64,000 nucleotides of DNA from Maridesulfovibrio sp. (GTDB taxonomy: Bacteria; Desulfobacterota; Desulfovibrionia; Desulfovibrionales; Desulfovibrionaceae). Below are positions 42,085-47,083 of the stretch, piece by piece. The notes under the pieces were generated by a model. It was not told the origin of the DNA and did no database searches. It saw only the letters and a program-made list of their open reading frames with translations. Positions within the stretch are counted from its first letter, which is position 1, and the number at the start of each line of letters is the position of its first letter. The position numbers were made by a program, and so were the translations under genes. The stretch covers positions 682,001 to 746,000 of the forward strand of contig NZ_OY763931.1 in assembly GCF_963667685.1 (NCBI RefSeq), in the 5' to 3' direction.

Positions 42085-43461
42085 ATGTCATCTCAAATAC
42101 GTCAGAATATTCAATTGATAGTTGCTTTCTTTCTGGTCCTTTTTGGAGGAACGGCAGGTTATCTTTATTTGGAAAAAGGATGGTCAGTGCTGGATGCCCT
42201 TTACATGACCGTGATAACAATCACCACTATCGGATACGGGGAAATACATGACCTTTCACCTGCAGGACGAATATTTACCATCATTTTGATCTTTGTCGGG
42301 CTTGGTCTTGCCGCTGTTTTCGTGGCTCAGGTCACTAAAGTCATTATTCAATCAGGAATCAGAAACCTTTACGAGAAAAAGAAAATGTACGACAAAATCA
42401 ACAAATTAAAACAACACACAATTGTCTGCGGATACGGTAAAATAGGTCGTGCAATATCCTTGAAACTTTATGAACTTGGACTTGATTTTGTTGTTCTGGA
42501 TCAAAATCAGGAACGGCTCGCCGAAGCGGAACAACGAGGCTACAAAGTTTTACATGGTGACGGAGCTGTTGACGGGGTGCTGCTTTCCGCTGGAATTCGT
42601 CGTGCTGATTTCATTGTTCTTTGTATTAATGATGATGCCTGCAACATTAATATTTCACTGGCAGCCCGGGAGCTGAATTCTGATATTTTTATTGTTGTCC
42701 GCGGAACAGATCCATCCATTGAATATAGAATGCTGCGTGCTGGTGCCAACACAGTGGTCTACCCTCTTGATCTCGGAGGGGAACAAATCGGTCATATTCT
42801 TGCCCGACACGCCGGAGTTGCAGAGAATGAAGAAGCCGGTCCAACTGCTCATGAGGTGATGGGATACAGTCTGCGTATTTTTCCTTATTATGACAACACA
42901 CCGACCACAGTTGGTGAAGTTAAAGTCAGGACTGGGGCAGTTAACGCGCTGGTGCTGCACCGGGAAGACGGGACAGATATTGAAAATCCTGCGGATGATA
43001 TGGAGCTGAGTTATGGTGATTCCGTGCTTGAACTGGTGAAAAATGACGGGGCGGGCTGCGAACTGAAGAACGACATCAAGTGGTCTAAAGATTTGATTCT
43101 CGGAATTCCATTCATTGATGCTGAGCATCGGGTTCTGGTACGCTATGCCGAAGATTTCCAGACAGCCCTGCGTGAAGGACAGGACCACGAAGCCGTGGCC
43201 AGACTTTTTGACCGTCTGCTGGAATACACTTCAAGCCATTTCGCCCGCGAAGAGGCTTTTATGCAAAAACGCGGTTTTCCCGAAATAGAAAAACATATGA
43301 AAGAACACCGCCGCATTACCCGTGAAGTAATGGAGCTGAACCGTGACAAGAAATACATTTTCCCGGACAGCATTGATTCATTTTTGCAGGACTGGATAAT
43401 CAACCACATCAATACCACTGACCGCAAGTATGTGAAGTTTTTTAAGGATGAGGATAAATGA
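42085..43461 (+). CDS. Potassium channel (RCK type) with C-terminal hemerythrin domain
   Basis: 458 residues. Residues 10-90 form a two-helix pore with selectivity filter TTIGYGE (47-53). An RCK N-domain follows (GYGKIGR at 116-122, acidic D139 ending the second strand), then an RCK C-domain (about 255-322). Residues 331-455 are a complete hemerythrin module: IKWSKDLILGIPFID opens it, and the seven iron ligands H348, H385, E389, H404, H408, H441 and D446 are all there. Channel plus RCK resembles MthK/Kch. The hemerythrin part would bind oxygen or NO through a di-iron site, so a gas- or redox-gated K+ channel is inferred. The stop overlaps alkD by 4 bp. Confidence 0.93.
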   Translation: MSSQIRQNIQLIVAFFLVLFGGTAGYLYLEKGWSVLDALYMTVITITTIGYGEIHDLSPAGRIFTIILIFVGLGLAAVFVAQVTKVIIQSGIRNLYEKKKMYDKINKLKQHTIVCGYGKIGRAISLKLYELGLDFVVLDQNQERLAEAEQRGYKVLHGDGAVDGVLLSAGIRRADFIVLCINDDACNINISLAARELNSDIFIVVRGTDPSIEYRMLRAGANTVVYPLDLGGEQIGHILARHAGVAENEEAGPTAHEVMGYSLRIFPYYDNTPTTVGEVKVRTGAVNALVLHREDGTDIENPADDMELSYGDSVLELVKNDGAGCELKNDIKWSKDLILGIPFIDAEHRVLVRYAEDFQTALREGQDHEAVARLFDRLLEYTSSHFAREEAFMQKRGFPEIEKHMKEHRRITREVMELNRDKKYIFPDSIDSFLQDWIINHINTTDRKYVKFFKDEDK

Positions 43462-44147
43462 ATAATATTTTCACTGTAATCCGGCAGGAACTTCAAGCCC
43501 ATGCCGATCCGGAATGTGCGGCTGGTATGAAGAGATATATGAAATCTGAAATGGATTACTACGGATTTCGCACTCCCCTGCGCCGGAAGATTTTTAACAA
43601 AACTTTCAAAGAGTCAGGCCCATGGGACTTTGAGAAATGGCAGGAAATTATATTTGAACTTTGGCGTGAGGCAGAATTTCGAGAAGAACGCTATTGCGCA
43701 ATTGACCTCGTTTGCTGGAAGCCATGCGAAAATTTTCAAACATGGGAAGCAGTCCCGATGCTGGAAGAAATGATCACTGGCGGAGCATGGTGGGACTATT
43801 GTGACCACCTGGCAAAACCACTGGGGAATATTCTACGCGCTGAGCCGGTACGTATGCGAGAATTGATGCTGGAATGGTCCACAGACGGGCAGATGTGGAA
43901 ACGGCGTTCATCTATTCTCTGTCAGTTACTTTTCAAAGATGATCTGGATTTTGAACTTCTGCAAAAATGTATCGAACCGAATATTGATTCCAAAGAATTT
44001 TTTTTGCGCAAAGCTATCGGTTGGGCTTTACGTGATTACGCTTGGACAAATCCGCTGCAGGTTAAAGATTACGTCGAAGCCAATGCGGAACGACTTTCGG
44101 GGCTAAGCAAACGTGAAGCATTGAAGAACCTTGGGAAATTATTGTAG
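43458..44147 (+). CDS. alkD: AlkD-like DNA alkylation repair enzyme
   Basis: HEAT-repeat DNA glycosylase that removes alkylated bases without base flipping. 229 residues, family length. YGFRTPLRRKIF near the N-terminus, EERYCAIDLV, the WWDYCDHLA segment with the catalytic Trp/Asp pair, and FFLRKAIGWALRDYAWTNP with the second tryptophan are characteristic. It starts in an ATGA overlap with the channel gene, so the two are translated together. The pairing with a hemerythrin channel hints at oxidative or nitrosative stress, but this is inference. Confidence 0.92.
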   Translation: MNNIFTVIRQELQAHADPECAAGMKRYMKSEMDYYGFRTPLRRKIFNKTFKESGPWDFEKWQEIIFELWREAEFREERYCAIDLVCWKPCENFQTWEAVPMLEEMITGGAWWDYCDHLAKPLGNILRAEPVRMRELMLEWSTDGQMWKRRSSILCQLLFKDDLDFELLQKCIEPNIDSKEFFLRKAIGWALRDYAWTNPLQVKDYVEANAERLSGLSKREALKNLGKLL

Positions 44148-44261: not shown

Positions 44262-45716
44262 TTACTTTCGCCAGAACTCAGGAACGCAAAGAACGATAAC
44301 GGTGTATATTTCAAGACGTCCCAGCAGCATGCTGAAGATAAGTGCCCATTTCCCAAGCTCTGGTATGTGGGCATAGTTATCAGTGGGACCAACGCTCCCG
44401 ATACCGGGACCGATATTACCAATACATGCTAAAGAAGCTGCAAATGATGAGACAACATCTACACCAGTTGCGGCGACAACCAATCCGCATAACACAAACA
44501 GCAGGAGCCAAAGTACGCAAAATCCGAGAATATCGTTCATGGTTTCCGGCTTGACTACTGTCTTGCCGAGTTTAACTCGGTTAACTGAGCGGGGATGGAT
44601 TATACGGAAGACTTCCTGATATGCCTGCTTCATGAGCAGCATGATACGCAGATGTTTCATTCCACCACTAGTAGATCCAGCACAACCACCTAGAAACATG
44701 CAGAAAAGCAATAATCCCTGAGCTACTGCCGGCCATATTTCATAGTCTGCAGTGGCAAATCCGGTGGTGCTGATGATCGATGCTACCTGAAAAGAGGTAT
44801 AGCGGAATGAATCTGCAATGGAATCATAGTTAGTGGCAGAATATACGGCGATAGTAATGACTGCCATGATTACAAGGGTTATCACGCCGAAGAATTTGAA
44901 TTCCGGGTCTCTCCAGAGCAGTAGTGGACGGCCTTTTATCATCTGGTAATGCAGACTAAAATTAACCGCTGCCACGAGCATGAAAAATGTAATTACATAA
45001 TCAATATAGGCACTGTCAAAATATGCAACTGAGGAGTTTTTGGTGGAAAAACCTCCTGTAGCAAGTGTGCCGAAGGTATGGCAGAGGGAATCGAAAAAAT
45101 CCATACCGCCAAACATGAGTAATACTGCCTCGATTGCGGAGAAAAGAAGGTATACTTTCCAAAGAACCAAAGCAGTATCTTTGATGCGCGGCTTGAGTTT
45201 ATCCGGAACCGGTCCCGGAACCTCCGCCTTGTAGAGCTGCATCCCCCCTACTCCAAGGAAAGGCAGGATAGCCAGTGAAAGCACAATGATTCCCATGCCG
45301 CCGAGCCAGTGCGTTAAGCTACGCCAGAAAAGAATTCCTTTGGCATTCTTTTCTATATCAATCATCACTGAGGCACCGGTGGTGGTGAATCCCGAAAGGG
45401 ATTCAAAAAAACAATCCACATAGCTGGTGAAAACATCACCAAAATAAAAAGGCAGGCTTCCGAAAAAACCGGCAAATATCCAACCCAAGGCTACGATAGC
45501 CATACCTTCTCGATGGCTGAGTCCTCTTTTTTCTTCTCGATCCTTGAAAAAAATAAACATGGCCATACCGCCAGTGCAGGTCAGCGCAAGAGATTTTAAC
45601 AAGGGTACAATACCGGAATCTTGATAATAAAGGGAAAATCCCAGCGGAAACAGCATGGTCAGCCCGACGCAGAGAGTCAAGGCTCCAATTATATGCAGAA
45701 CAATTTTCCAGCGCAT
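44262..45716 (-). CDS. trkH: Trk-type potassium uptake membrane subunit
   Basis: Ion-conducting subunit of the Trk K+ uptake system. 484 residues with about ten membrane helices and four pore loops, e.g. ESLSGFTTTGASV, THWLGGMGIIVLSLAILP, LCHTFGTLATGGFST and GGCAGSTSGGMKHLR. The P-loop glycines line the filter. The start overlaps the trkA stop in TAATG with GGAG eight bases upstream. It works with TrkA encoded just before it. Confidence 0.95.
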   Translation of the reverse strand: MRWKIVLHIIGALTLCVGLTMLFPLGFSLYYQDSGIVPLLKSLALTCTGGMAMFIFFKDREEKRGLSHREGMAIVALGWIFAGFFGSLPFYFGDVFTSYVDCFFESLSGFTTTGASVMIDIEKNAKGILFWRSLTHWLGGMGIIVLSLAILPFLGVGGMQLYKAEVPGPVPDKLKPRIKDTALVLWKVYLLFSAIEAVLLMFGGMDFFDSLCHTFGTLATGGFSTKNSSVAYFDSAYIDYVITFFMLVAAVNFSLHYQMIKGRPLLLWRDPEFKFFGVITLVIMAVITIAVYSATNYDSIADSFRYTSFQVASIISTTGFATADYEIWPAVAQGLLLFCMFLGGCAGSTSGGMKHLRIMLLMKQAYQEVFRIIHPRSVNRVKLGKTVVKPETMNDILGFCVLWLLLFVLCGLVVAATGVDVVSSFAASLACIGNIGPGIGSVGPTDNYAHIPELGKWALIFSMLLGRLEIYTVIVLCVPEFWRK

Positions 45717-47083
45717 TAATAAAGCTCCAGCTTAGTAGTGAGAGCCTTTTCAATTTTAGGAATATTTTTGTGGGTAGAGATAATCAGCAGACGGTCATTA
45801 GGCTCAATCACTGTCAGACCAGTGGGGATAATAACATCATCGCCACGCTGAAAACATAAGATAAGGGTTCCTGTTGGAAGATTTAATTCCATGATCGGCT
45901 TCCCGACGATCCCGGATTCTTCCTGCGCAATAGCTTCAAGAGCTTCCGCTTCCTCTCCCTTGATGGATACAGCGGAAATAACTTTTCCCTGACGAACAAA
46001 ATGTAAAATAGAATTGATTGCGGAAAGACGCGGACAGACCAGATGGTCGATGCCGATCGGCTCAATCAGTGGAATATAAGCAAATTTATTGATGCGTGTA
46101 ATGGTCTTGCGTGCACCGAGATTTTTGGCCAGCAGACAGGAAAGGATATTCATTTCCTCATCTCCTGTCACAGATATGACCATATCAAGATCACCAACAT
46201 TCTCTTCGTTGAGCAAATCCTGATCCGTGCCGTCACCGTTAAGAACAATAACCCGGTCCAAGGTTTCTGAAAGAGCGGCACAGCGTTCTGGGTCACTGTC
46301 AATCAATCTGGTGTGATATTTTTTGTTGTCCAGAGCCTGCGCAAGTAACGAACCTACATTACCGCCACCGACAATCATAACTTTCTTGATGGGGTCGGAA
46401 AGTATCCCGGCCCGTTTCAGGAGTTCATTCTGTTGGTCTCGCAAACAGGTGAAATATACGATATCGCCCTGCTCAATGCTATCCAGACCGCCGGGGATGA
46501 TCAGCTCGTCATTCCTGACCAATGCCGCGATAACAACATCTATATCTTCACCGAGTGTTTCACGCACCTTCAGCAGCTGCACCCCTACAAGCGGACTTTT
46601 GTCAGGAAGCTTAACCCCGATGAGACGCACTTTTCCGCCAACGAAATCGTTGATTTCTACTGCGCCGGGCACACTCATAATTCTCAGAATGGAATCAACA
46701 ACCTCTTCATCCGGATTGATGATAGTATCAATACGCAAATCACCTTCTTTGAACATATCGGAATACTTTGTGTAATCCTCATTTCTGATTCGGGCTAATT
46801 TGATAATATTGGGCTGGAGTCTGTTGGCAAAAAAAGTGGCGATAAGATTAATTTCATCTTTGTCCGTCACTGCCAGTAAAATATCAGCTTCACTTACCCC
46901 CGCTTCTTCCAGTATCTCGGGACTGGCGCCGGAGCCTTGAATTGTCTGGACATCCAGAGAATCGGATACCTTGCTAAGAGCTTTGGAATTCATGTCGATA
47001 ACGACAACATCCTTGTTCTCACCGGAAAGGCGTCTGGCTACATTAAAGCCGACTTCTCCGGCTCCTACTATGATGACTCTCAA
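45716..47083 (-). CDS. trkA: Trk system potassium uptake protein TrkA
   Basis: Peripheral NAD(H)- and nucleotide-binding regulator of TrkH. 455 residues with two RCK halves: GAGEVG at 7-12 and GGGNVGSLLAQAL in the second half, each followed by an RCK_C part (GVKLPDKSPLVGVQL, MELNLPTGTLIL). The start is TTG (47081-47083) with AAGGAG six bases upstream; the encoded MRVIIVGAGEVG matches the family start. A good promoter lies 60 bp upstream. Confidence 0.95.
   Translation of the reverse strand: MRVIIVGAGEVGFNVARRLSGENKDVVVIDMNSKALSKVSDSLDVQTIQGSGASPEILEEAGVSEADILLAVTDKDEINLIATFFANRLQPNIIKLARIRNEDYTKYSDMFKEGDLRIDTIINPDEEVVDSILRIMSVPGAVEINDFVGGKVRLIGVKLPDKSPLVGVQLLKVRETLGEDIDVVIAALVRNDELIIPGGLDSIEQGDIVYFTCLRDQQNELLKRAGILSDPIKKVMIVGGGNVGSLLAQALDNKKYHTRLIDSDPERCAALSETLDRVIVLNGDGTDQDLLNEENVGDLDMVISVTGDEEMNILSCLLAKNLGARKTITRINKFAYIPLIEPIGIDHLVCPRLSAINSILHFVRQGKVISAVSIKGEEAEALEAIAQEESGIVGKPIMELNLPTGTLILCFQRGDDVIIPTGLTVIEPNDRLLIISTHKNIPKIEKALTTKLELY

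Follow-up and report, generated by a model that had tools for sequence, protein, structure and literature searches.

Why would a potassium channel carry a hemerythrin domain? The question is raised by a gene in a 64,000-nucleotide stretch of the genome of the sulfate-reducing bacterium Maridesulfovibrio sp. (contig NZ_OY763931.1, positions 682,001 to 746,000; hereafter, the window), in which a pore, an RCK gating module and a hemerythrin lie within one reading frame. RCK rings and hemerythrins have each been well studied separately. The gene and its parts are the following:

42085..43461, + strand: potassium channel–RCK–hemerythrin fusion gene (458 aa), a single open reading frame with the same domain order in 14 intact copies, including that of the window.
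42085..42363, + strand: two-transmembrane (2-TM) pore module (TM1, pore helix, TM2), residues 1–93, with Ion_trans_2 at 15–88 and helices modelled at 3–29, 35–47 and 59–89.
42223..42243, + strand: selectivity filter TTIGYGE, residues 47–53, read directly.
42421..42765, + strand: RCK_N (TrkA_N) Rossmann lobe, residues 113–227, from Pfam TrkA_N, with GxGxxG at 116–121 and D139.
42865..43041, + strand: RCK_C-like lobe, residues 261–319, from the order of strands and helices in two AlphaFold models and from Foldseek, not from Pfam.
43042..43074, + strand: flexible linker, residues 320–330, leading into the hemerythrin N-terminal loop (pLDDT below 50 at 321–331 in the full-length model and at 321–328 in the second model).
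43075..43449, + strand: bacteriohemerythrin domain, residues 331–455, from Pfam, NCBIfam, the ligands and a Foldseek match to deoxy-DcrH-Hr (2awc).

The frame starts with ATG and runs for 458 codons without an internal stop, which bears out the single 458-residue frame with a TTIGYGE pore and a hemerythrin that had been read in a preliminary description of this DNA. In Pfam, Ion_trans_2 (6e-19, above its curated cut-off) is followed by TrkA_N (5e-28; 98.2 bits against a cut-off of 23.8), corresponding to the RCK_N Rossmann lobe after TM2, and by Hemerythrin (residues 340–451, 2.9e-12; 47.6 bits against 25.3). The NCBIfam bacteriohemerythrin model NF033749 reaches 109.8 bits, its cut-off being 84. 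The seven iron ligands proposed in the same description (H348, H385, E389, H404, H408, H441 and D446) are all found at exactly those positions and form the motif H-HxxxE-HxxxH-HxxxxD, given as the ligand motif of hemerythrin sensors in passages of PMC9388753. The RCK part is borne out as well, with one addition: RCK_N is recognized by Pfam, whereas RCK_C, for which Pfam TrkA_C gives no match even at E 0.1, is visible only in AlphaFold models and their Foldseek matches.

The full-length AlphaFold2 model was built on 52 sequences (5 with hemerythrin and 47 channels without) and has a mean pLDDT of 81. Its ring part consists of a Rossmann lobe (residues 112–243) and a strand–helix–strand lobe of the RCK_C type (261–319), and the four hemerythrin helices (342–363, 368–395, 401–419 and 430–455) carry 1, 2, 2 and 2 ligands, respectively. 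Foldseek ranks MthK as the best match to this model (319 columns aligned), followed by GsuK. A second AlphaFold job, on residues 245–458 with five sequences (pLDDT 71), has 2awc, the hemerythrin of DcrH, as its best match (TM-score 0.81 on the target, 2.9 Å), and matches the RCK_C domains of KhtT, MthK and KtrA with a probability of 1.00, at weak E-values of 0.02–0.1. Neither model (pTM 0.43 and 0.52, respectively) gives a determined placement of the hemerythrin on the ring. In sequence and predicted fold, the protein has the features of a 2-TM RCK K+ channel (TM1–pore helix–TM2 with a K+ filter, and RCK_N, with RCK_C assigned by fold) as well as those of a hemerythrin sensor (the ligand motif, a four-helix bundle and a functional domain attached within the same chain).

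Which known systems does this protein resemble? MthK (PDB 6oly and others) shares the TM1-P-TM2 pore and has RCK_N and RCK_C in one subunit, but it is gated by Ca2+ and lacks a hemerythrin, and the RCK_C of the window protein is too distant for Pfam TrkA_C. GsuK (PDB 4gx0–4gx5), a nucleotide- and Ca2+-regulated K+ channel, is the best PDB sequence match and shares the GxGxxG...D/E motif; however, it has two RCK domains per subunit, with the nucleotide on RCK2, and no di-iron domain. According to passages of PMC3510474, NAD+ and ADP activate GsuK, whereas NADH has no obvious effect, and its GxGxxG...D/E site lies on RCK2; an RCK channel can therefore read metabolic state. For the hemerythrin half, the best solved relative is DcrH (2avk/2awc), a methyl-accepting chemotaxis protein (MCP) with a likewise C-terminal hemerythrin, joined to the output by an N-terminal loop, although the output is chemotaxis signaling in DcrH and an ion pore in the fusion. 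The window's genome encodes three DcrH-type MCP–hemerythrin proteins of its own (G000:C3:440989, G000:C2:121555 and G000:C3:138208) among nine hemerythrin matches. The characterized hemerythrin enzymes, as described in passages of PMC9388753, have a complete ligand set and a hemerythrin that controls a fused output, with the reduced form being active; in contrast to the fusion, their hemerythrin is N-terminal and they have no pore.

How widespread the architecture is had been raised in the preliminary description, and the answer is that it is rare: intact fusions occur in at least 11 of the family's 288 genomes, spread over five genera, in addition to one broken copy (G591). As a distant fusion could show as two separate rows, all these counts are lower bounds. 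Within the genus, at least 7 of 17 genomes hold a full-length fusion. In the class, a threshold of E 1e-75 leaves 12 of 348 genomes: the 11 already counted, together with G591, which contributes a fragment. Sampling the phylum evenly yielded at least 2 of 395 genomes (the window's and G225), with 1 of 22 genomes in the order of G225, while a sample of the spirochaete phylum (that of G452, whose contig L032 belongs to Spirochaetia bacterium GH26) yielded at least 2 of 296. In a collection of named genomes, a hemerythrin lies in the same frame in 4 (L029–L032) of the best 80 of 380 relatives. The resulting 14 intact fusions (the window's and 13 others) share the same domain order, with 38–86% identity to the window's protein. 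A split of the frame between RCK_C and hemerythrin, named in the preliminary description as a finding that would count against it, is absent from all 14. Broken frames are present in G055 (L140:8406-9867, −), a genome of the window's order that holds the fusion parts in pieces, and in G591 (L162:4388-5897, +); these two may reflect either decay or assembly error.

Two neighbors of the channel gene in the window deserve mention:

43458..44147, + strand: AlkD-like DNA alkylation repair gene (PF08713, 1.6e-59), with a 4-base overlap with the channel stop.
44262..47083, − strand: trkH–trkA pair for K+ uptake, transcribed toward the channel gene.

A glutamate decarboxylase gene also lies near the channel gene. 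The AlkD-like gene is perhaps co-transcribed with the channel, but we do not assign it a role in the mechanism. Neighbors were compared at 13 loci (among them L141 and L142, which lack the fusion) and at six more. Among these, the AlkD-like gene stands beside the fusion only in G016, the contig of G010 ending too soon to tell; trkHA flanks none of the other fusion loci compared, and outside the genus no window neighbor was common to them. Because the neighbors of the fusion are not conserved beyond the genus at these loci, we draw no function from them. A Rieske iron-sulfur protein is encoded directly after the G029 fusion gene (L031:3013-3429, +), and an NADH-pyrophosphatase-like NUDIX gene lies two genes upstream of a spirochaete-phylum fusion (L032:3533-4348, −); neither recurs at the other loci examined, though both are redox-flavored. 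A scan for promoters and terminators gave fewer sites than were found in shuffled sequences.

The seven ligands are invariant in all 14 intact fusions and in all 15 fusion hemerythrins of the tree set described below (a set that includes the broken G055 gene), and every ligand is retained while the identity of the hemerythrin domain among fusions falls to 34%. The filter reads TT(I/V)G(Y/F)GE in 13 of the 14 intact copies, GxGxxG is followed by D (11 copies) or E (3 copies) in all of them, and the length of the linker varies. Mean pairwise identity among the 14 copies is 60% for the TM part, 65% for RCK_N, 58% for the hemerythrin and 38% for RCK_C, which is the least conserved part. For six of the 21 genus pairs, hemerythrin dN lies between 0.027 and 0.113 with dS of at least 1.19 or saturated, and dN/dS is below 0.2 in every domain for those of the six pairs with finite dS. 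By these substitution rates the hemerythrin is under purifying selection, and its conservation is roughly that of the pore. The one deviating filter, TTVGYRE in the G954 fusion (L163:5572-6972, −), is expected to change the selectivity for K+, barring an error in the sequence.

Seven hemerythrin positions (E347, which adjoins the first ligand, F358, F375, T412, N419, Y424 and F426) carry the same residue in 14 or 15 of the 15 fusions, versus 0–3 of 32 other hemerythrins; with 10 divergent fusion rows, three remain (E347, F358 and F375). As controls, the same comparison yielded no such position in 12 long-frame hemerythrins (three confirmed MCP fusions, the others judged by length), one in a five-row clade, and none in each of 200 random draws. 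Either an interface with the ring or shared ancestry may explain the seven residues. Because a clade shares residues by descent, they are taken as suggestive only and were set aside as proof of such an interface.

Did the fusion arise once? A tree was made of 47 hemerythrin domains, 15 from fusions (counting the broken G055 gene) and 32 others; among the latter are single-domain as well as long-frame hemerythrins encoded by the window's genome and by other genomes that hold a fusion. Hemerythrins that matched the model at no more than 95 positions, or that the iterated profile did not pick up, were dropped (5 of 30 loci, namely L166, L171, L187, L188 and L191, and also the G591 piece), as were 12 of 42 matches that had no locus. 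All 15 fusion hemerythrins lie on one side of a branch, separated from the 32 others with a support of 96/90, the bootstrap not having fully settled. In a quick, midpoint-rooted tree of 129 channel halves, the 14 fusions fall into one clade (SH-aLRT 99), whose single hemerythrin-less member, L154 (G726, of the same phylum as G452), is nested among the spirochaete-phylum fusion copies. The L154 gene (L154:1501-2505, +) encodes 335 aa and ends after RCK_C; only Ion_trans_2 and TrkA_N reach their cut-offs, its contig of 4,642 bases yielded no hemerythrin, and it represents a hemerythrin loss inside the fusion clade. Since both halves of the fusions group together in the trees, the simplest reading is a single old fusion, followed by divergence or by transfer among lineages, the hemerythrin being lost at least once. 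The fusion is rare, well conserved and, on this reading, old.

Loss may also be visible within the genus. In G003 (L198), a frame on the 5′ side of the decarboxylase gene opens with some 12 residues resembling the channel N-terminus and continues as an AlkD-like protein, and it looks like the scar of a deleted channel–hemerythrin gene. In G001, G004 and G011, the decarboxylase is present at 83–93% identity and no channel was found within 1.5 kb beside it. Among the matches listed, a full-length copy is absent from 10 of the 17 genus genomes; together with the hemerythrin-less L154, this indicates that the fusion is dispensable.

What might the hemerythrin do? We envisage a 2-TM K+ channel of the MthK/GsuK type in which the cytoplasmic RCK gating ring bears its own sensor, a bacteriohemerythrin. 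O2 reaching the cytoplasm would change the state of the di-iron site, by oxygenation and then by autoxidation from the diferrous to the diferric form. This would alter the order of the hemerythrin N-terminal loop, here also the linker to RCK_C, and the change in the loop would shift the ring and with it the open probability of the pore. That the protein is a K+ channel with a gating ring biased in this way by the O2 or redox state of its di-iron site is, in our judgment, reasonably probable; for this we infer iron binding, tetramer formation, K+ conduction, coupling, the signal and its direction. In DcrH, the redox-dependent change sits in the N-terminal loop and has been proposed to act on the neighboring domain. 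Because the same loop joins hemerythrin and RCK_C here, we propose that gating would be loop-mediated. As the diferrous form is the active one in two characterized hemerythrin enzymes, the analogy weakly suggests a channel that is open when reduced.

A role in sensing or gating is favored by the old fusion with all its ligands, by known sensors that use the same module, and by channels with receiver domains. Two of the latter, from G445 (L142:2790-4145, −) and from a member of the Desulfobulbaceae (L059:6001-7326, +), have Ion_trans_2, TrkA_N and a C-terminal response-regulator receiver domain in one chain (with a TrkA_C match above the cut-off in L059 and just below it in L142), and might be set by a phosphorelay. 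With a receiver in the same C-terminal place, these two members of the channel class support the idea that this end takes input modules. Several observations count against the proposed mechanism: AlphaFold does not position the hemerythrin on the ring, L154 lacks the domain, most genus genomes have no full-length copy among the matches listed, the neighboring genes offer no functional clue, and the G954 filter should not select K+ normally. The ring may in addition read an adenine nucleotide (NAD+ or ADP, for example) at the GxGxxG site. A two-input redox channel, in which a non-heme di-iron O2/redox sensor acts directly on gating and the ring takes an adenine nucleotide as its second input, is a tentative extension to which we give somewhat less than even credence; the single RCK of the window protein, set against a nucleotide site on RCK2 in GsuK, speaks against the nucleotide input.

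Alternatively, the hemerythrin could be a passenger, serving as a membrane-tethered store or scavenger of O2 (or iron) with no effect on gating. We consider this unlikely, though it is the alternative that fares best. The linker is flexible and of variable length, and AlphaFold leaves the hemerythrin unplaced, so that a loosely tethered domain is conceivable. Free hemerythrins are moreover ordinary in the window's genome, where five of the nine hemerythrin matches are in short frames of 134–162 aa (in the four of these that were scanned, hemerythrin alone is above the cut-off). However, one hemerythrin per channel subunit would make a poor scavenger, the fusion has kept every ligand down to the domain identity of 34%, and hemerythrin fused to output modules is a known sensor design (in passages of PMC9388753).

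Less probable again is a domain that senses iron loading (apo versus holo), with the channel responding to cellular iron rather than to O2. Passages of PMC9388753 leave iron sensing open for the hemerythrin-like domain of a P1B-5 metal ATPase. That protein is an ATP-driven metal pump in which HxE replaces HxxxH, whereas the window protein has the canonical H-HxxxE-HxxxH-HxxxxD set, with HxxxH at 404/408, and no ATPase domain.

The preliminary description had pictured a channel gated by oxygen, NO or redox state in an anaerobe; our findings bear out the fused architecture, the full set of ligands and the anaerobic host, gating by oxygen or redox state is plausible, and NO gains no support. Diferrous hemerythrins can bind NO, and a diferrous site binding it might gate the channel under nitrosative stress. 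Our data do not separate NO from O2, no nitrosative-stress gene was recognized among the scanned neighbors, and we regard a dedicated NO sensor as a touch less probable than an iron sensor. A chance fusion, a frame error or a decaying gene is hardly credible despite two related copies with broken frames (G055 and G591), given low dN/dS in each domain (below 0.2 in the genus pairs with finite dS) and 14 intact copies in separate genomes, which already refute an artifact.

To our knowledge, an ion channel under the direct control of a non-heme di-iron O2/redox sensor would be the first of its kind, and we regard the hemerythrin-bearing RCK K+ channel as a new variant of RCK K+ channels. The characterized hemerythrin systems named in passages of PMC9388753 (2022) are DcrH, Bhr-DGC, Bhr-HD-GYP and the P1B-5 ATPase. 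In the portions of PMC4919030 consulted, 56 hemerythrin architectures are counted and the text names no channel fusion, its sole use of 'channel' explaining the name Cache; the channel–hemerythrin architecture may be tabulated in its Figure 4/S2. The words 'channel', 'TrkA' and 'potassium' are absent from the main text of PMC2556348, as are 'channel' and 'potassium' from PMC13401364 (2026), and passages of PMC8846402 and PMC1592074 contain no channel–hemerythrin fusion. In searches of open PubMed Central papers, the listed titles, abstract openings and selected passages gave no account of an ion channel that carries a hemerythrin. The architecture can probably be found in protein databases.

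If the proposed O2/redox gating is true, a gas or redox signal would act on a pore without an intervening messenger, in cells that are harmed by oxygen, and the exposure of an anaerobe to oxygen would be turned into a changed K+ flux and membrane potential. How a di-iron site moves a fused output domain is an open question of the hemerythrin sensor field (in passages of PMC9388753), and the fusion channel would then offer a handle on this coupling, readable as a single-channel current. A side observation concerns another transport protein: in G591, with a hemerythrin match below the Pfam cut-off (18.1 versus 25.3 bits), an ABC transporter with a membrane and an ATPase domain (L162:2-2197, −) runs into a hemerythrin-like stretch near the end of the contig piece.
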